A stretch of DNA of 64,000 bases from an uncultured SAR116 cluster alpha proteobacterium (GTDB taxonomy: Bacteria; Pseudomonadota; Alphaproteobacteria; Puniceispirillales; Marisalimonadaceae): positions 124,001 to 188,000 of the forward strand of contig CACJQK010000001.1 of the NCBI GenBank assembly GCA_902595515.1, written 5' to 3'. A program made the position numbers and the translations under genes. The notes below the pieces were generated by a model. The model was given only the letters and a program-made list of their open reading frames with translations, was not told the DNA's origin and did no database searches. Below, one piece after another: positions 5,033 through 57,174 of the stretch (the first letter of the stretch is position 1; the number at the start of each line of letters is the position of its first letter).

Positions 5033-5063
5033 TATGTCTGACAAATTTAATTTGTCAGACATA
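5033..5063. terminator. Strong inverted repeat, probable bidirectional terminator
   Basis: A perfect 13-bp stem, TATGTCTGACAAA (5033-5045) with TTTGTCAGACATA (5051-5063), surrounds a 5-base loop; one further T-A pair can close inside. It lies 14 bases beyond the stop of the minus-strand binding-protein gene and so ends the amino-acid ABC operon. On the plus strand it is followed by a T-rich run. Confidence 0.65.
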
Positions 5064-5077
5064 TACTAATTGATTTT

Positions 5078-5863
5078 TTATAACGATGGTAGAGATGGTA
5101 GATCTTGACCTAACCATTTAAGTGAAATTTTATTAAGATCACCACCTAGTTTCTTATGAAGAATAAAAACATTTACCCATCTTAATAAATCTTCATTTCC
5201 TTTTTTAACTCCAATAAAGCAAGGGCTATCTTTGATTATAAACTTTCTTTCTAAATCAAAATCAGGATTAGCCTCTGTTACTGAAGCTGCAACAGTATTT
5301 CCAGCAACAAGTACTTGGACTTGTTTTGACTTTATAGCACTTAATGTTGCTGCGTTATCGCCAAATCTTGTTATTTTAGCACCCTTAGGAGCCATTTTAG
5401 TTAATTCTAAATCTTCTAATGTTCCTCCTGTAACACCAATTGTGAGGCCATCTAAATCTGAATAAGAAGAAACTTTAACCGAGGATGGAGCAAAAACACC
5501 AGAATAAAATGGTGCATATGCGCTGGAAAAATTTATTGACTTAGCTCTTGAGGGATTAGCACCCATTGTGGATATAACTAAATCAACCTTATCTGTTTCG
5601 AGAAAAGGAATTCTTTGTTTTGAAACCACTGGTACAATTTTTAGCTTAACTCCTAAATCCTTTGCAATAAGCTTAGCTACATCAACATCATAACCTTCAT
5701 GTTCTCCAGTTTTGCCAACTGATCCAAAAGGTGCAAAAGCTTCAGGAACGGCTATTTTTACTTCACCATTTTTAAGTATTTCATCTAAGTCGGCAGCATT
5801 TGTTGAAAAATTCATAAAGAATAAACTTAATATGAATCCATATATCATTTTTTTTGAAAACAT
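5078..5863 (-). CDS. Polar amino-acid ABC transporter, periplasmic binding protein (family 3)
   Basis: This protein captures an amino acid in the periplasm and delivers it to the two permeases encoded just upstream. I place the start at ATG 5863, ten codons inside the longest frame, because GAAAGGA lies 8 bases before it and it opens a clean signal peptide (MFSKKMIYGFILSLFF, cleaved near NAADL). The 261-residue protein has the SBP_bac_3 pattern: an early VAVPEAFAPFG-like strand (here KIAVPEAFAPFG), GYDVDVAKLIAKDLG (about residues 57-71), DLVISTMGANPSRAKSINFS and IGVTGGTLEDLE. It is the last gene of its operon. The exact amino acid is unknown. Confidence 0.88.
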   Translation of the reverse strand: MFSKKMIYGFILSLFFMNFSTNAADLDEILKNGEVKIAVPEAFAPFGSVGKTGEHEGYDVDVAKLIAKDLGVKLKIVPVVSKQRIPFLETDKVDLVISTMGANPSRAKSINFSSAYAPFYSGVFAPSSVKVSSYSDLDGLTIGVTGGTLEDLELTKMAPKGAKITRFGDNAATLSAIKSKQVQVLVAGNTVAASVTEANPDFDLERKFIIKDSPCFIGVKKGNEDLLRWVNVFILHKKLGGDLNKISLKWLGQDLPSLPSL

Positions 5864-5882
5864 TTTTTTTCCTTTCAATTTA

Positions 5883-6566
5883 TTAATTTTCAATTGCGTA
5901 TTTTTTTTCTAAGTGTTTTGCGTAAATAGCTAGGGGGTAACACAGGCAGAAATACAAAACTGCCATAATAGGAAAGATTATAAATGGCTCAGATCCTATC
6001 ACCGGAGCATTCGCCCATCTTTTTCCTAATAACATTAAATCTTGAAAACCAATTATATATGCTAGGGAAGTGCCTTTTATAATTTGAATTAGAAAGCTTA
6101 CTGTAGGTGCAATACTATATTTATAAACTTGAGGTATTATTATAAGTCTTAAAATCTGCAAGAAATTAAAATTTAGAGCAACTGCTCCTTCCCATTGTCC
6201 TTTAGGTATGGCTAAAATTGCTCCTCTCCACACTTCTGCTAGATATGCCGAAGTAAAAACTACCAATGATATACTAGCAGCATACCAAGGGTTGAAGTCT
6301 TGTCCGATAAAACGTGGAATTCCTAATCCAATAATAAATAATAACATTAGTAGAGGTAAAGATTGGAACAACCAAATATACGAAAAGCTAATATAATTCA
6401 AAATTTTTGATGGATATATTCTTAAAAAAGTTACTAATAAAGCAAGCAATCCACCACCAATAAAAGCTATTAATGATAAATAGATTGTGAATCTAGTAGC
6501 CGATATTAGTTGTGCTATAATTATCCCCAATGGCTTATCAAAAATTTCAATCAATATCTCTTGCAT
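5883..6566 (-). CDS. Polar amino-acid ABC transporter permease (HisM/GlnP type)
   Basis: An inner-membrane permease of the amino-acid ABC type, 227 residues with about five membrane segments. It shows the EAA-loop region with WEGAVALNFNFLQILRLIIIPQ (conserved E, A, and G/N positions) followed by hydrophobic helices. Its ATG at 6566 directly follows the stop of the preceding permease gene, implying translational coupling, and the binding-protein gene starts 19 bases after its own stop. It probably forms a heterodimer with the 6567-7241 product. No ATPase gene is in the operon. Confidence 0.88.
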   Translation of the reverse strand: MQEILIEIFDKPLGIIIAQLISATRFTIYLSLIAFIGGGLLALLVTFLRIYPSKILNYISFSYIWLFQSLPLLMLLFIIGLGIPRFIGQDFNPWYAASISLVVFTSAYLAEVWRGAILAIPKGQWEGAVALNFNFLQILRLIIIPQVYKYSIAPTVSFLIQIIKGTSLAYIIGFQDLMLLGKRWANAPVIGSEPFIIFPIMAVLYFCLCYPLAIYAKHLEKKYAIEN

Positions 6567-7241
6567 TCACATTCTCTTTTTTAATGTTTTATTAAAAACA
6601 ACTTCTAAAGTTGTTTTTAATAATAAAGAAAGAGCAACGTATAAAATCGATAAAACAATAAATATTTCAAAAGTTCTGAACGTCCTGCTATCAATATATA
6701 AGCCAGCATGAGTGAGATCATTGACACCAATCTCAGAAATAATTCCTGTAGTTAAAAAAATAAAAATAAATTGGCTTGATAATGAAGGAAACATTTTAAT
6801 CAATGTGTGAGGAAGCACAATTTTTCTGAATATTGTCATTTTATTTAAATTTAAAGAATATGCAGCCTCTAGTTGACTGTTCGGAGTAGAGTTAAATCCT
6901 GACCTTAATATTTCTCCAAAATATCCTGTAAAATTTATGGTTAATGCTAGAAGCGCGTGTGCCCAAAAGGGCCACACATATTGAAATATTAATGGCAAAC
7001 CAAAGGTAACAAAAAATAATTGAACTATTAATGGAGTGTTGCGAATAAAATCAATCCAACAAATAGATAAATAGTTTAGTGGTTTTACTTTCCAATAAAT
7101 TGATGCAGCTAAAATAAATGCTATTATAAATCCAAGACCGCCTGAGATAATTGTTAAGCTAGAGCTTATAAATATCCCCTCGAGTATAAGACTCATATAT
7201 TCTGATGATCTATAAATTTCAAAAAAGCGAAAGTCAAACAT
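6567..7241 (-). CDS. Polar amino-acid ABC transporter permease
   Basis: The first gene of the operon, 224 residues, with the His/Glu/Gln/Arg/opine permease layout. N-terminal helices are followed by an LNKMTIFRKIVLPH segment, which matches the EAA loop, and by further membrane segments. It is the paralogue and likely partner of the permease downstream. The intergenic region 7242-7490 must contain its promoter, because the next gene on the other side reads the opposite way. The ATPase must come from elsewhere in the genome or be shared. Confidence 0.87.
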   Translation of the reverse strand: MFDFRFFEIYRSSEYMSLILEGIFISSSLTIISGGLGFIIAFILAASIYWKVKPLNYLSICWIDFIRNTPLIVQLFFVTFGLPLIFQYVWPFWAHALLALTINFTGYFGEILRSGFNSTPNSQLEAAYSLNLNKMTIFRKIVLPHTLIKMFPSLSSQFIFIFLTTGIISEIGVNDLTHAGLYIDSRTFRTFEIFIVLSILYVALSLLLKTTLEVVFNKTLKKRM

Positions 7242-49732: not shown

Positions 49733-50767
49733 ATGAATAAATTGATTGGCGTAGTAGTGACAACAATTATCAGCGCTGGATTATCGTTTTCAGCATTAGC
49801 TGATAAGGTTACTCTAAAATTTCATACAATGGTACCAATGCCAGCAAATTCAAATGCTAAATTTGTTAAACCATGGGCTGATAAGGTAAAAAAAGAAAGC
49901 AATGGGGAAATTATTACTGAAATGTATCCTTCAATGCAACTTGGAGGAAAACCACCACAACTAGTTGATCAAGCTCGCGAAGGTGTTGTAGATATTGTTT
50001 GGACAGTAGCGGGTTATACTCCTGGAAGGTTTCCAAGATTATCTGTCTTTGAATTACCTTTCATGCCAACAAGTGCAAAAATAACTGCTCAAGCTGTTCA
50101 AGAATTTGTTGAAACCGCTGGAGCTGAAGATCTGAAAGATTATAAAATTCTTGCAGTTCACGTTCATGCCCCAGGTATGATACACACTAAAAAAACATTA
50201 ATTAAATCAGTAAGTGATTTTAAAGGTCTTAAGCTAAGAGGTCCAACACGTTCAGCAACAAGTTTATTAAAAAACTTAGGAGCAACACCCGTTGGTATGC
50301 CAATACCAAAAGTTGCACCTTCCTTGTCAAAAGGAGTAATTACGGGGATGGTTGTTCCTTGGGAAATTATGCCATCTTTTAAACTCCAAGAATTAACTAA
50401 ATCGCATACCAATGTTGCGGGAAATAGAGGTCTTTATACGACACCATTTCTTTTTGTAATGAACAAAGCAAAATACGATTCATTGTCACCAGCCCATAAA
50501 AAAGTTATTGATAATAATTCAGGTATGTCATTAGCTAGACAAGCAGGTATATTGTGGGATGATTTTGAGGGACCTGCACGTGCATTAGCAGTTAAAGCTG
50601 GAGGTGAATTTCACACTATAACCGGAGCACCTTTAGCTGATATAAAAAAAGCAGCAGATCAAGTCATTCAAGATTGGATTAAAGATGCTAACAGTAAAGG
50701 TCTTGATGGACAAAAACTTTACGATACTGCAAAGTCTTTAATTTCAAAATATGAAAAAATGATGTAA
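49733..50767 (+). CDS. dctP: TRAP transporter substrate-binding protein (DctP family)
   Basis: A 344-residue periplasmic binding protein with a signal peptide (LIGVVVTTIISAGLSFSALA, cleaved near ADKVT). DctP features are VKFHTMVPM-like start (here LKFHTMVPM), the conserved arginine in FKGLKLRGPTRSA, and PSLSKGVITGMVVPWE. TGGAGGAAT gives a strong ribosome site. It is divergent from the aromatic operon and so probably binds an aromatic acid. Hairpins directly follow (50771-50844). Confidence 0.92.
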   Translation: MNKLIGVVVTTIISAGLSFSALADKVTLKFHTMVPMPANSNAKFVKPWADKVKKESNGEIITEMYPSMQLGGKPPQLVDQAREGVVDIVWTVAGYTPGRFPRLSVFELPFMPTSAKITAQAVQEFVETAGAEDLKDYKILAVHVHAPGMIHTKKTLIKSVSDFKGLKLRGPTRSATSLLKNLGATPVGMPIPKVAPSLSKGVITGMVVPWEIMPSFKLQELTKSHTNVAGNRGLYTTPFLFVMNKAKYDSLSPAHKKVIDNNSGMSLARQAGILWDDFEGPARALAVKAGGEFHTITGAPLADIKKAADQVIQDWIKDANSKGLDGQKLYDTAKSLISKYEKMM

Positions 50768-50770
50768 TTA

Positions 50771-50844
50771 TCCTAAATATGAGTTTTAGGAAAAAAATTT
50801 TCACGATTAAAATACGTCCAAATAATAAATTTGGACGTATTTTA
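50771..50844 (+). promoter_or_regulatory. Two hairpins at the dctP-dctQ junction
   Basis: The first hairpin pairs TCCTAAA (50771-50777) with TTTAGGA (50785-50791); the dctQ ATG (50779-50781) lies in its loop. The second is a perfect 16-bp inverted repeat (50808-50823 with 50829-50844, 5-base loop) inside the first codons of dctQ. No T-run follows, so this is more likely a translation block or mRNA-end stabiliser than a terminator. No Shine-Dalgarno sequence precedes dctQ. Confidence 0.6.
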
Positions 50845-51309
50845 CATTTGATCTCTAGATATTTTGCAATCTTTGGTGGCTTTGTACTTTTAACAGCTGC
50901 TTTAATTAGTATTTTTTCTATTTTTGGAAGAGTTGTCTTTTCATCCCCTATTCTAGGCGATTTTGAATTAGTTGAAATAGCTTGCGCAGTTGCAATTGGA
51001 TCCTTCTTGCCATTATGCCATCTCAAAGAAGGTAATGTTATAGTAGATTTCATAACAGCTAAATTATCAAAAAGTAAAATTAATTTTTTAGATTCTATCA
51101 GTTCCCTCATATTTGGATTGGTTGCTTTGTTTTTTAGTTCTCGTATGATTTTAGGAGCTAAGGACATGTATCTTTATCAAGAAGAAACTATGCTGCTAGC
51201 GTTTCCAATTTGGCTACCTTTTATTCCAGTTATAGCCTCTTTCTTTCTTTTAACAATTTGTTGTTTTTATACCTTCGCAATAAAAATAAATCAGATAACA
51301 GGAAAATAA
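50779..51309 (+). CDS. dctQ: TRAP transporter small permease (DctQ)
   Basis: A 176-residue four-span subunit. Its N-terminal cytoplasmic stretch (KIRPNNKFGRIL) is encoded by the perfect 16-bp palindrome. The DctQ pattern is present: IFSIFGRVVFSSPILGDFEL with the conserved E and G, then LPLCHLKEGNVIVDFI. It follows dctP by 11 bases and precedes dctM by 5 bases. Confidence 0.9.
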   Translation: MSFRKKIFTIKIRPNNKFGRILHLISRYFAIFGGFVLLTAALISIFSIFGRVVFSSPILGDFELVEIACAVAIGSFLPLCHLKEGNVIVDFITAKLSKSKINFLDSISSLIFGLVALFFSSRMILGAKDMYLYQEETMLLAFPIWLPFIPVIASFFLLTICCFYTFAIKINQITGK

Positions 51310-51314
51310 TCCTT

Positions 51315-52631
51315 ATGGAAAAATTTACACTAGGCATTGTTGCTTTTCCTATATTATTTTCAATGCTTGCATTAAGAGTTCCTATTGGACTAGCAATGTT
51401 AATAGTTGGTTGCTCTGGAACAATTATAATAGCTGGATGGCTTCCAATTTTATCGCAAGTTAAAACTAGTGCTTGGCATTTATTTTCTAATTACTCTTTA
51501 TCTGTCATCCCGCTATTTTTATTAATGGGAAATTTTGCAGGTAAAGCAGGTATGAGTGAAGCACTTTTTAAATTCACTGGAGCATGCCTTGGACACAGAA
51601 AAGGTGGTGTTGCAATGGCAGCAATTGGAGCCTGTGCTGGATTTGGAGCAATTTGTGGCTCGTCACTAGCTACAGCTGCTACAATGGGGAAGGTTGCATT
51701 ACCAGAATTAAGAAGACTTGGATATTCTGGAGCCTTAAGTACAGGCACCCTAGCGGCTGGAGGTACGCTGGGTATTTTAATTCCACCATCAGTTATACTA
51801 ATCATATATTCAATTTTAACAGAACAAAATATTGCTAAAATGTTTTTGGCTGCCTTCATACCAGGTATTTTAGCAGCTCTGGGATACATATTTGCAATTG
51901 GTTTATATGTTAGATTTGTAAAAGGTTCGGGACCAACAAAGGAAAGAGTTGGCTGGAAAGAAAGGTTGTTTTTATTTAAGAATATTTGGCAGATCATTCT
52001 AATTTTTTTAGTGATGATCGGGGGTATTTATTTAGGTTGGTTTACTCCAACAGAAGGTGGTGCTATAGGGGCTGGCGGAGCAGGTTTAATAGCAATTTCT
52101 AACAAAAACTTTAAATTTGGTGACTTAGTTGATGTGATAGAGAGTACAGCAATAACTTCTGCTATGATATTTCTAGTACTTTTAGGTGCAGAATTTTTCA
52201 ACTCATTTATAGCATTAACACAACTTCCAAACCAATTAGGTGAGATTGCATTAGAAAATAACTTTTCACCTTATCTAATTGTAGCTTGTATTCTTGTACT
52301 ATATTTGTTTTTGGGCTGTTTAATGGATAGCCTGGCAATGATATTACTCACCATACCAGTTTTTTTCCCTTTGATAATGACATTGGATTTTGGAATGTCT
52401 GCTGAAGAGACAGCAATATGGTTTGGAATATTAACACTCATCGTCGTAGAAGTAGGATTAATCACACCTCCAGTTGGATTAAATGTTTTTATTATCAATA
52501 AGATGGCTGGAGATGTCAGCATTACTGAGACATTCAAAGGAGTTTTACCATTTTTGTTTAGTGATATCTTAAGAGTTATACTTTTATTCTCTTTTCCTGG
52601 TATTACACTATTTCTTCTTAAAATTTTTTGA
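51315..52631 (+). CDS. dctM: TRAP transporter large permease (DctM)
   Basis: A 438-residue large subunit with about twelve spans. I choose ATG 51315; the longer frame merely overlaps dctQ. Typical segments are ALRVPIGLAMLIVG, SVIPLFLLMGNFAGKAG, SSLATAATMGKVALPELRR, GTLGILIPPSVILIIYS and, near the end, VEVGLITPPVGLNVF. It completes the TRAP set begun by the 49733 dctP. Confidence 0.94.
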   Translation: MEKFTLGIVAFPILFSMLALRVPIGLAMLIVGCSGTIIIAGWLPILSQVKTSAWHLFSNYSLSVIPLFLLMGNFAGKAGMSEALFKFTGACLGHRKGGVAMAAIGACAGFGAICGSSLATAATMGKVALPELRRLGYSGALSTGTLAAGGTLGILIPPSVILIIYSILTEQNIAKMFLAAFIPGILAALGYIFAIGLYVRFVKGSGPTKERVGWKERLFLFKNIWQIILIFLVMIGGIYLGWFTPTEGGAIGAGGAGLIAISNKNFKFGDLVDVIESTAITSAMIFLVLLGAEFFNSFIALTQLPNQLGEIALENNFSPYLIVACILVLYLFLGCLMDSLAMILLTIPVFFPLIMTLDFGMSAEETAIWFGILTLIVVEVGLITPPVGLNVFIINKMAGDVSITETFKGVLPFLFSDILRVILLFSFPGITLFLLKIF

Positions 52632-52762: not shown

Positions 52763-53788
52763 ATGATTAATATTAGAAGAATTATTGCAGTTGGTTTGAT
52801 GGTTCTTATGTCAAACATATATGCAAATTTAGTTCTTGCCGCTGTTGATGGACCAGATGTTTTTTGGAAATTTAGTCTCTGGGGAAAAAGAAGAGCTTTT
52901 ACCGAAGGCGCAGAAACATTATCAAAAAGATTATCTGAAGAAACTAATGGTAAATTCAAACTTAAGATTTTCTATGGGGGACAACTATCTAAATCAAAAG
53001 AAAATCTGGATGGATTAAAAGCCAACTCATTTGAAATGGCTGCTTTTTGTAATTTTTACCACCCAGGTAAAAATGCAGGATTAATGGTTTTAACTATGCC
53101 GTTTCTACCAATGGGAGATTTTGATAAAGATGCAAAGATTAGACAAGCTGTGTATGATCATCCAATTGTCTCAGGTCAGTTGGCTAAATGGAATGCTATG
53201 CTATACATGACATCTAATCTTCCTCAATATGAGTTCTTAGGTAAAGGAAAACCACCAACTAGCTTGTCAGATTTTAAAGGAATGAGAGTTCGTGCTGGTG
53301 GTGGTGTAGGTAAAGCTATGGAAAAATTAGGAGCTATAAGACAAACCGTTCCAGCTAGTGAAGTTTATACATTAATTTCAAGAGGTGCTGTGGATGCTGT
53401 TTCTTTTCCTTATACATATGCTCACGCTGCATATAAGATTCATGAAGTTGCAGAATGGTATACTGCTAATTTATCACCAGGAACCTCTGACTGTCCATAT
53501 GTCATAAACAAAACTTCATACAACAAACTACCTAAACAATATCAAAAACTGCTTCAAGATTTAAAGCCTGAAGCATTAGCTTCAATGAAAGCTGCTTATA
53601 AAAAAGCTGATGATAAAAATTTACCAATGTTTAAATCAAAACTTCAAGAAATAAAGTATGACGAAAAAACTTTAGCAGAGTTTAGAAAAACTGCAGGTAA
53701 ACCTGTTTGGGACGCTTGGGTAAATGCAAATAAAGATAAATTTGATGCTCAAGCCTTACTAGATTTAATTTTTGCAACTGCAAAATAG
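52763..53788 (+). CDS. dctP: TRAP transporter substrate-binding protein (DctP family), second set
   Basis: A 341-residue binding protein with a signal peptide (IIAVGLMVLMSNIYANLVLA). The conserved arginine is in FKGMRVRAGGGVG; PASEVYTLISRGAVDAVSF is the usual DctP segment. TTGGAGG gives a strong ribosome site. Only moderately similar to the 49733 protein, so it probably binds another acid. A textbook terminator directly follows its stop. Confidence 0.92.
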   Translation: MINIRRIIAVGLMVLMSNIYANLVLAAVDGPDVFWKFSLWGKRRAFTEGAETLSKRLSEETNGKFKLKIFYGGQLSKSKENLDGLKANSFEMAAFCNFYHPGKNAGLMVLTMPFLPMGDFDKDAKIRQAVYDHPIVSGQLAKWNAMLYMTSNLPQYEFLGKGKPPTSLSDFKGMRVRAGGGVGKAMEKLGAIRQTVPASEVYTLISRGAVDAVSFPYTYAHAAYKIHEVAEWYTANLSPGTSDCPYVINKTSYNKLPKQYQKLLQDLKPEALASMKAAYKKADDKNLPMFKSKLQEIKYDEKTLAEFRKTAGKPVWDAWVNANKDKFDAQALLDLIFATAK

Positions 53789-53798
53789 TTACATCTTG

Positions 53799-53834
53799 GC
53801 ATGTGTGTAATTTTTTACACACATGCTAATTTTT
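53799..53834 (+). terminator. Rho-independent terminator between dctP and dctQ
   Basis: The perfect 12-bp stem GCATGTGTGTAA (53799-53810) with TTACACACATGC (53815-53826) has a TTTT loop and is followed by TAATTTTTT. It ends just 3 bases before the dctQ ATG (53838), so it works as an attenuator within the operon unless a promoter lies inside dctP. Confidence 0.85.
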
Positions 53835-53837
53835 TAA

Positions 53838-54413
53838 ATGTCTAAAATCTTAACTAAATCAAATAATTACCTCAGTGTATTCGAAGATTATTTAATAAAG
53901 ATATCTGGTATTTCCTTATTTGTTGTGATGATACTTACATCATTTCAAATTATATCACGGGTGTTAGGTTATCCGTGGCCAGGATATTTAGAATTATCAG
54001 AACTATCAATTTCAATTTTTGCTTTTTTAGGTGTTGCATACGCTCAGCGACTTGATGCACATATTAGAATGGAGCTTTTAGTTGGAAATTTAAAAGGACG
54101 TGCTAAATGGCTACTTGAATTTTTTTCTACAATCTTTTCTTTCTTAGTTGTTTTAATATTAATTTATTATAGTTGGTTATTTGCAATTGATGCATATAAA
54201 ATAGGCGATACAACTTACGATTACTTATATCCTACATGGCCAGCAAAAATACTTGTTCCCATTGCCTTTACTATATGGGCACTAAGACTGTTCCTTGAAA
54301 TATTTGGTTTTTTAAGAATGATTTTATTTAAAAACTTAGAGCCAATAGCTATTCCAATCATGAAGACACCTGAAGAACTCGCAAACGAAGAAATAAAGGT
54401 AATTAAGGACTGA
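53838..54413 (+). CDS. dctQ: TRAP transporter small permease (DctQ)
   Basis: A 191-residue four-span protein with the DctQ pattern: MILTSFQIISRVLGYPWPG (conserved R and W), ELSELSISIFAFLGVAYAQR and DAHIRMELLV. It starts 3 bases after the T-run of a terminator and has no Shine-Dalgarno sequence. It is followed after 3 bases by dctM. Confidence 0.9.
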   Translation: MSKILTKSNNYLSVFEDYLIKISGISLFVVMILTSFQIISRVLGYPWPGYLELSELSISIFAFLGVAYAQRLDAHIRMELLVGNLKGRAKWLLEFFSTIFSFLVVLILIYYSWLFAIDAYKIGDTTYDYLYPTWPAKILVPIAFTIWALRLFLEIFGFLRMILFKNLEPIAIPIMKTPEELANEEIKVIKD

Positions 54414-55953: not shown

Positions 55954-57132
55954 ATGAAAAAAACATTAATTTCATTTATGCTATCAATATTCTTAATTTT
56001 TCCAGCTATTGCAGATAATGTAAAAATTGGAATTATTCTTGGATTTACAGGTCCTATTGAATCTTTAGCGCCTGTGATGGCTAAAAGTGCTGAAATGGCT
56101 ATTGATGAAGTAAATAAATCAGGTAACTTTACTCATGGCAAAATAGATAGTGTCAGAGGTGACTCAACATGTGTTGATGCTGCTGCTGCGCAAGCAGCTG
56201 CAGAAAGATTGATTACTGCAGAAAAAGTGAATGCTATAATGGGTGCTGATTGCTCTGGTGTTACTACTGCTGTTTTAAAAAACGTAGCAATGCCAAATGG
56301 TATTGTTATGATATCTCCATCTGCAACATCACCAGCACTATCAACTGAGCCTGATAATGGCTTGTTTTTTAGAACCGCACCATCAGATGCTAGACAAGGT
56401 GAAGTTATAGCAGATTTATTAATGGAAAAAGGTTTTAAAACGGCTGCCTTATCACACACAAACAATGACTATGGAAAAGGCTTAGCTGCAAGTATTCAAA
56501 AAAACTTCACCTCTAAAGGAGGTAAAATTACCATAACAGCATCTCATGAGGATGGTAAAGCTGACTATAGTGCTGAAGTTGCTGCTCTTGCCCAAGCTGG
56601 TGGTGATATTTTGATAGTCGCAGGCTACCTTGATCAGGGAGGTAAAGGTATAATACAAGCATCATTAGATGCAGACGCATTTAATAAATTTTTCTTACCA
56701 GATGGTATGATAGGTGATTCTCTTCCAAAAGCTATTGGTCCAGATCTCAATGGATCAATTGGATCTGTTCCAGGTACAGACAGCCCAGGCGCAGCTAAAT
56801 ATTCAGAATTAGCAAAAGCGGCAGGTTTTGAGTCTGGGCCTTACGGACCTGAGTCTTATGATGCCGCAGCTCTAATTATGCTTGCAATGGAAAAGTCAAA
56901 ATCCACTAAAAGTAATATTTTTAAAGCTAGTGTTATGGATGTAGCTAACGCTCCCGGAGAGAAAATTTTTCCAGGTGAACTTGGTAAAGCACTAAAATTA
57001 ATTAAGGCAGGAAAGGATGTAGACTATGTTGGAGCAACAGCCCTAGAGCTTGTTGGTGCTGGCGAGTCCTCAGGAAGTTTTGCCGAAATATTAATCGACA
57101 ACCAAAAAACCAACAAAGTTGGTTATAGGTAA
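55954..57132 (+). CDS. Branched-chain-amino-acid-type ABC transporter binding protein (LivJ/K family)
   Basis: A 392-residue periplasmic binding protein with a signal peptide (MKKTLISFMLSIFLIFPAIA, cleaved before DNVKIG). The type I fold is shown by KIGIILGFTGPIESLAPVMA, DSTCVDAAAAQAAAERLI, MISPSATSPALS and SHTNNDYGKGLA. AAGGGGA precedes the ATG. The family carries leucine-like amino acids, amides or urea; the ligand is unknown. A terminator follows directly. Confidence 0.92.
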   Translation: MKKTLISFMLSIFLIFPAIADNVKIGIILGFTGPIESLAPVMAKSAEMAIDEVNKSGNFTHGKIDSVRGDSTCVDAAAAQAAAERLITAEKVNAIMGADCSGVTTAVLKNVAMPNGIVMISPSATSPALSTEPDNGLFFRTAPSDARQGEVIADLLMEKGFKTAALSHTNNDYGKGLAASIQKNFTSKGGKITITASHEDGKADYSAEVAALAQAGGDILIVAGYLDQGGKGIIQASLDADAFNKFFLPDGMIGDSLPKAIGPDLNGSIGSVPGTDSPGAAKYSELAKAAGFESGPYGPESYDAAALIMLAMEKSKSTKSNIFKASVMDVANAPGEKIFPGELGKALKLIKAGKDVDYVGATALELVGAGESSGSFAEILIDNQKTNKVGYR

Positions 57133-57138
57133 AATTAG

Positions 57139-57174
57139 AAAAGGCTTAGGATATTTTCTTAAGCCTTTTTTTTT
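57139..57174 (+). terminator. Rho-independent terminator between the binding protein and ATPase genes
   Basis: AAAAGGCTTAGGA (57139-57151) pairs with TCTTAAGCCTTTT, with one G-U pair, around a short T-rich loop, and is followed by a run of T ending at 57174. The ATG of the ATPase gene is at 57177, only 2 bases later. This separates a strongly expressed binding protein from the rest of the operon. Confidence 0.85.

Follow-up and report, generated by a model that had tools for sequence, protein, structure and literature searches.

The analyzed stretch of DNA (hereafter the window) comprises 64,000 nucleotides from an uncultured SAR116 cluster alphaproteobacterium, whose genome is AT-rich with a GC content of 31%. 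A TRAP transporter operon is encoded on its forward strand, consisting of dctP for the solute-binding protein (49733–50767; PF03480, E 3.7e-41), dctQ for the small membrane subunit (50779–51309; PF04290, E 4.5e-13) and dctM for the large membrane subunit (51315–52631; PF06808, E 1.7e-89). The ATG of dctQ lies 11 nt 3' of the dctP stop, and the first codons of dctQ hold the palindrome that had been pointed out in the preliminary description (50808–50844, forward strand), in which 16 of 16 base pairs (100%) are complementary around a 5-nt loop. Its 5' arm extends from the third base of codon 10 to codon 15 (50808–50823) and its 3' arm from the third base of codon 17 to codon 22 (50829–50844). 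The stem begins 29 nt after the ATG and 40 nt after the dctP stop codon, and four of its 16 pairs are G-C. A weak U-tract is formed by U-rich sequence at the stem's foot (50840–50849, forward strand), which is partly paired with a 5' run of A; the hairpin passes a loose terminator scan, with T at no more than 5 of 8 positions.

For comparison, 58 genomes of the family were searched and dctQ was found at E <= 1e-40 in 43 of them, at 44 places in four genera, all of which were used. The reading frame of dctQ is kept in these homologues, and two of them (L012 and L025) stay in frame despite having three bases fewer before the stem. A later start of dctQ, which would render the hairpin intergenic, could be envisaged at a TTG (codon 24) in the window and in seven near relatives. 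Since 25 of the 44 homologues contain no ATG, GTG or TTG in dctQ codons 21–50, translation must start 5' of the stem at least in those, and the later start was consequently ruled out. The third-position bias in dctQ codons 2–11 is small, with diversity sums of 2.6, 1.8 and 1.7 at positions 1, 2 and 3 (ten codons, 18 rows), compared with 0.07, 0.02 and 0.30 per codon in the downstream codons. Codons 2–11 are thus under only weak constraint as protein.

Neither base composition nor the protein sequence accounts for the large stem, because stems of this kind are rare in simulated windows and among synonymous recodings. Two perfect 16-bp stems with loops of 3–8 nt are present in the window, whereas simulated windows (60 for each Markov order) contained on average 0.017, 0 and 0 for orders 1, 2 and 4, respectively, and when the first 30 dctQ codons were recoded synonymously 100,000 times, just 28 versions reached 16 bp. 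Furthermore, the 141-nt dctP-dctQ junction folds at −30.3 kcal/mol, whereas 200 shuffled versions averaged −18.1 kcal/mol (sd 2.9), giving a z of −4.3. A mobile palindrome or repeat was ruled out, the core dyad being single-copy in the genome. An Rfam scan at the gathering score revealed no family at the stem, a tRNA being the only match in the window, and none in L002, L052, L083 and L170. The second perfect 16-bp hairpin of the window (6589–6623, 3-nt loop, 14% GC) lies within a minus-strand ORF for an ABC permease (6567–7241), at the 3' end of the latter.

All 16 pairs of the large stem are Watson-Crick pairs in 15 of the 44 homologues, and the 37-mer of the stem folds at −13.7 kcal/mol or lower in 36 of them. 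In the alignment used for covariation (A1; 44 rows, 27 of them distinct), 88.2% of the stem cells are paired, compared to 28–53% in slid registers. Compensatory changes among relatives, which the preliminary description had named as a check on the stem, are present: eight of the 16 pairs changed on both sides. The covariation score amounts to 0.260 as opposed to 0.133 (sd 0.011) for shuffled alignments, and none of 500 shuffles reached any of the five observed measures; shared ancestry is kept in with these shuffles, and the slid registers and a tree correct for part of it. The best pair links the third bases of Arg13 and Gly19, with the codon combinations CGT:GGA, CGC:GGG and CGA:GGT. Among 42 rows (L029 and L095 excluded) this pair reads T:A in 20, A:T in 12 and C:G in two, along with seven wobbles and one mismatch, and is thus paired in 41. 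In the same rows, the third bases of codon 12 and Arg20 read A:T in 37, G:C in three and G:T in two. The tree was derived from the part of dctQ that lies 3' of the stem. On it, the Arg13-Gly19 pair takes a minimum of six state changes; this is less than the sum of the five and four required by the two sides apart, so that some of the changes at Arg13 and Gly19 coincide.

Silent sites were compared among 20 near relatives (L002–L021). The mean same-amino-acid codon difference was 0.014 in eight stem codons versus 0.321 in 142 others, an about 20-fold low that was equalled by none of 136 ten-codon windows and by none of 20,000 random eight-codon samples. The compensatory changes and the nearly frozen silent sites among near relatives bear out the earlier suggestion that the coding palindrome is selected as an RNA structure. 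As judged from these alignments, the large stem is kept by selection on RNA base pairing, beyond the peptide alone.

This evidence weighs on two explanations that do without an RNA element. If only the protein were constrained, the peptide RPNNKFGR would matter to DctQ and its codons would be complementary by accident; 42 of the 44 homologues do indeed retain this peptide, apart from minor changes. However, this leaves the matched third-position changes, the frozen silent sites and the scarcity of suitable recodings unexplained, and in the clade without the stem the peptide is missing too while the rest of DctQ is intact, which makes a pure protein constraint very improbable. A DNA operator, i.e. 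a dyad bound by a regulator, is just as improbable. A perfect 37-bp dyad that is identical, letter for letter, in most nearer relatives would suit such a site, but its core is found only once in the genome and its letters vary in matched pairs and via G-U wobbles, which suits RNA.

The clade without the stem consists of L029 and L095, which group together in the tree and in which the peptide RPNxxFGR is gone as well. The stem is damaged in six other homologues (L022–L024, L026, L028 and L050). Evidently, with six damaged stems and two homologues without any, the element can be lost. One genome (G030) carries two dctQ copies, L020 with the stem and L095 without stem and peptide.

A small 7-bp hairpin precedes the large stem (50771–50791, forward strand). 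Its location is as previously described: TCCTAAA (50771–50777) pairs with TTTAGGA (50785–50791), and the 7-nt loop contains the ATG of dctQ (50779–50781). The evidence for this hairpin is much weaker than for the large stem: in six rows taken from L002–L016, 0–3% of plain shuffles of its 36-mer reach a fold as good. According to fold prediction of the homologues, the hairpin occurs in L002–L016, and the clade of L022 has one of different sequence; it is absent or weak in L017–L019, L021, L027, L051, L083–L089 and others. A role of the ATG-holding hairpin across the family was therefore not upheld, and it is probably incidental. Where the large stem is damaged (the clade of L022), the start-codon hairpin of different sequence is longer (−7.8 kcal/mol) and is possibly a shifted element.

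Both hairpins together could be taken as controlling the translation of dctQ only, by slowing or blocking initiation or early elongation. The ATG held by the small hairpin in the window and in L002–L016 would be in line with this, as would the stem of another dctQ of the genome (L170, see below), in which the A of the start codon is paired. The large stem, however, lies 29 nt past the ATG, and the usual translation initiation footprint ends short of a stem at this distance. Moreover, only part of the family has the small hairpin, and the position of the large stem equals that of intergenic hairpins elsewhere which leave dctQ untouched. Translation control as the sole function is thus improbable.

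The 3' ends of other dctP and binding-protein genes were analyzed as well. A hairpin was classified as terminator-like if it had a stem of at least 8 pairs with at least 3 G-C, a loop of 3–8 nt and at least 5 T in 8. Eight of the 10 dctP genes in the genome, including the one discussed here, are followed by such a hairpin within 110 nt, in some of the others with a clear T-run of 6–8. As for the remaining two, L041 has no hairpin and L047 carries the long-loop stem of the second coding-embedded case described below. Two examples for comparison are found in the window on the forward strand, one (53796–53829) in the gap between a second dctP (52763–53788) and its dctQ (53838–54413), the other (57137–57171) 3' of an ABC binding-protein gene (55954–57132; Peripla_BP_6). 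Contig C1 spans 300 kb, with 309 ORFs according to a simple gene caller. Here a terminator-like hairpin is present at four of four codirectional DctP junctions versus two of 179 other codirectional junctions, and both of the latter follow binding-protein genes (Peripla_BP_6 and Phosphonate-bd). A fifth DctP gene on this contig, which has a convergent neighbour, also carries one. A stricter scan of C1 yielded 17 sites, 12 of which are intergenic and four antisense to genes; the single sense site within a gene is the dctQ stem.

Beyond this genome, a terminator-like site was found at 22 of the 30 dctP loci examined (from 48 matches) in six genomes of the family. For two ABC binding-protein families in the source genome, four of seven matches qualify; the hairpins at L199 and L201 miss the rule, and L203, a match below the family cut-off, has none. 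Class-wide, four of 29 dctP 3' ends are terminator-like and 26 fold at −15 kcal/mol or lower; these figures come mostly from GC-rich genomes, are without shuffle control, and carry no weight in the argument. At one of the loci outside SAR116 (L169; GC 0.55, a different family of the same class) the terminator-like hairpin 3' of dctP extends into the following ORF, and this arrangement may recur. In the window, a perfect 14-bp hairpin (5033–5063) is located about 15 nt past the end of a minus-strand ORF (5078–5893), which from its translation looks like an amino-acid binding protein.

A coding-embedded stem was found in two clearly different dctQ genes, the one in the window and a second dctQ of the genome (G000:C8, 37042–37554; locus L170), in which the stem includes the start codon. 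This 13-bp stem with G-U pairs (L170:1489–1548) has a 5' arm ending with the A of the start codon, which pairs to codon 12, and a 3' arm formed by codons 12–16 and followed by a T-run. Its core is kept in 27 of 27 homologues examined, with 94.5% of the cells paired; four pairs changed on both sides, and between 0 and 4 of 500 shuffles scored as high. Two broken gene fragments from genome G003 (L197 and L198) were left out of this set. The second dctQ of G003 is apparently broken, as stop codons occur within these matched stretches.

With respect to the position of the stem and its conservation, we consider it likely that the palindrome acts as an RNA hairpin which sets the ratio of dctP to dctQM and is built into the first dctQ codons, not into the intergenic gap. 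Upon formation of the hairpin the transcript may end there by partial intrinsic termination, with the TTT and TTA codons before the first membrane helix providing the weak U-tract. Alternatively, the transcript might be trimmed back to the hairpin and be protected by it as a barrier to 3' exonucleases. Either route would leave a dctP-only message, and the binding protein would be made in excess of the membrane protein. To partial termination we would give somewhat less than an even chance. Conservation of the U-tract was considered as proof of termination and turned out to be uninformative, the stemless L029 and L095 being about as T-rich there.

A decay barrier alone appears possible, though rather unlikely. 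In this case no termination would occur, and the hairpin would block 3'-5' exonucleases after the dctQM part has been cut, as for malE of E. coli, resulting in a stable dctP message. The weak U-tract of the dctQ stem is in favor of such a barrier, and so is the E. coli precedent, where 17 of 26 structures protecting the upstream operon gene sit in the next coding sequence and show conserved wobble positions (PMC5927463). On the other hand, the T-runs of 6–8 at other dctP genes suit termination, and a T-run follows the second coding-embedded stem (L170). The proposal that the hairpin protects the dctP mRNA hence agrees with its position 3' of the binding-protein gene and with this precedent (PMC5927463). 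A partial terminator, however, is in no worse agreement, since a hairpin with a U-tract is found at the same place in other dctP genes of this genome.

An objection to a ratio-setting hairpin is that translation of dctQ would unfold it: from the geometry we infer that a ribosome begun on dctQ would open the stem when only a few codons in. The low number of G-C pairs (four of 16), the weak U-tract and the damage or loss of the stem in eight homologues also speak against it. A more specific proposal is put forward as a tentative and rather doubtful one. The start of SAR116 dctQ might constitute a translation-gated terminator, with the codons of a short linker as the stem and the Phe/Leu codons before the first membrane helix as the U-tract, so that dctQM would be transcribed only if a ribosome had begun dctQ in time. 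If this were true, translation capacity would influence how much binding protein is made relative to membrane protein.

In transporters that depend on a binding protein, this protein is needed in excess of the membrane protein, and the means by which operons adjust the two are known for few systems. The dctQ stem can be followed clearly by comparison in a major group of uncultured marine bacteria, with matched silent changes across four genera. Since the element lies in coding sequence and is kept by such changes, it is testable with silent mutations alone. Furthermore, it illustrates that an odd conserved N-terminal peptide can arise as a by-product of an RNA element.

A literature search in open papers retrieved no description of such an element in dctQ. 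Older work on dctPQM of Rhodobacter capsulatus reportedly mentions a stem-loop between dctP and dctQ. Ribosome-gated attenuation is known from ampC. It is likewise found in the pyr leader, where a translating ribosome can prevent the terminator hairpin (PMC5021804). The idea that a ribosome stops the hairpin would be shared by a gated dctQ, but these attenuators make use of a leader, whereas here the membrane-subunit gene itself would serve this purpose.

In the ABC importers of Ruminiclostridium cellulolyticum, internal terminators follow the binding-protein genes; they are intergenic and reporter-tested, with long stems, low U content and a U-tract paired with the 5' foot (PMC9045158). The dctQ stem has in common with them a stem-loop right after a binding-protein gene that comes first (40 nt after its stop), a long stem, low U content and a U-rich foot paired with 5' letters. 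It differs in lying not between the genes of an ABC operon but in the coding sequence of a TRAP operon (codons 10–22 of dctQ), and is known from sequence. The protective 3' structures of E. coli have no U-tract, are located at a mean distance of 107 nt from the gene start and are backed by decay data, and the upstream gene often encodes a transporter binding protein (PMC5927463). The dctQ stem resembles them in its location within the downstream coding sequence, in the conservation of wobble positions (0.014 versus 0.321) and in the binding-protein gene upstream, and differs by its distance of 29 nt into the gene, its weak U-rich foot and, again, the kind of data behind it. Taken together, the comparative evidence identifies the dctQ stem as a genuine RNA element under selection, which is of a known kind but unusually placed.
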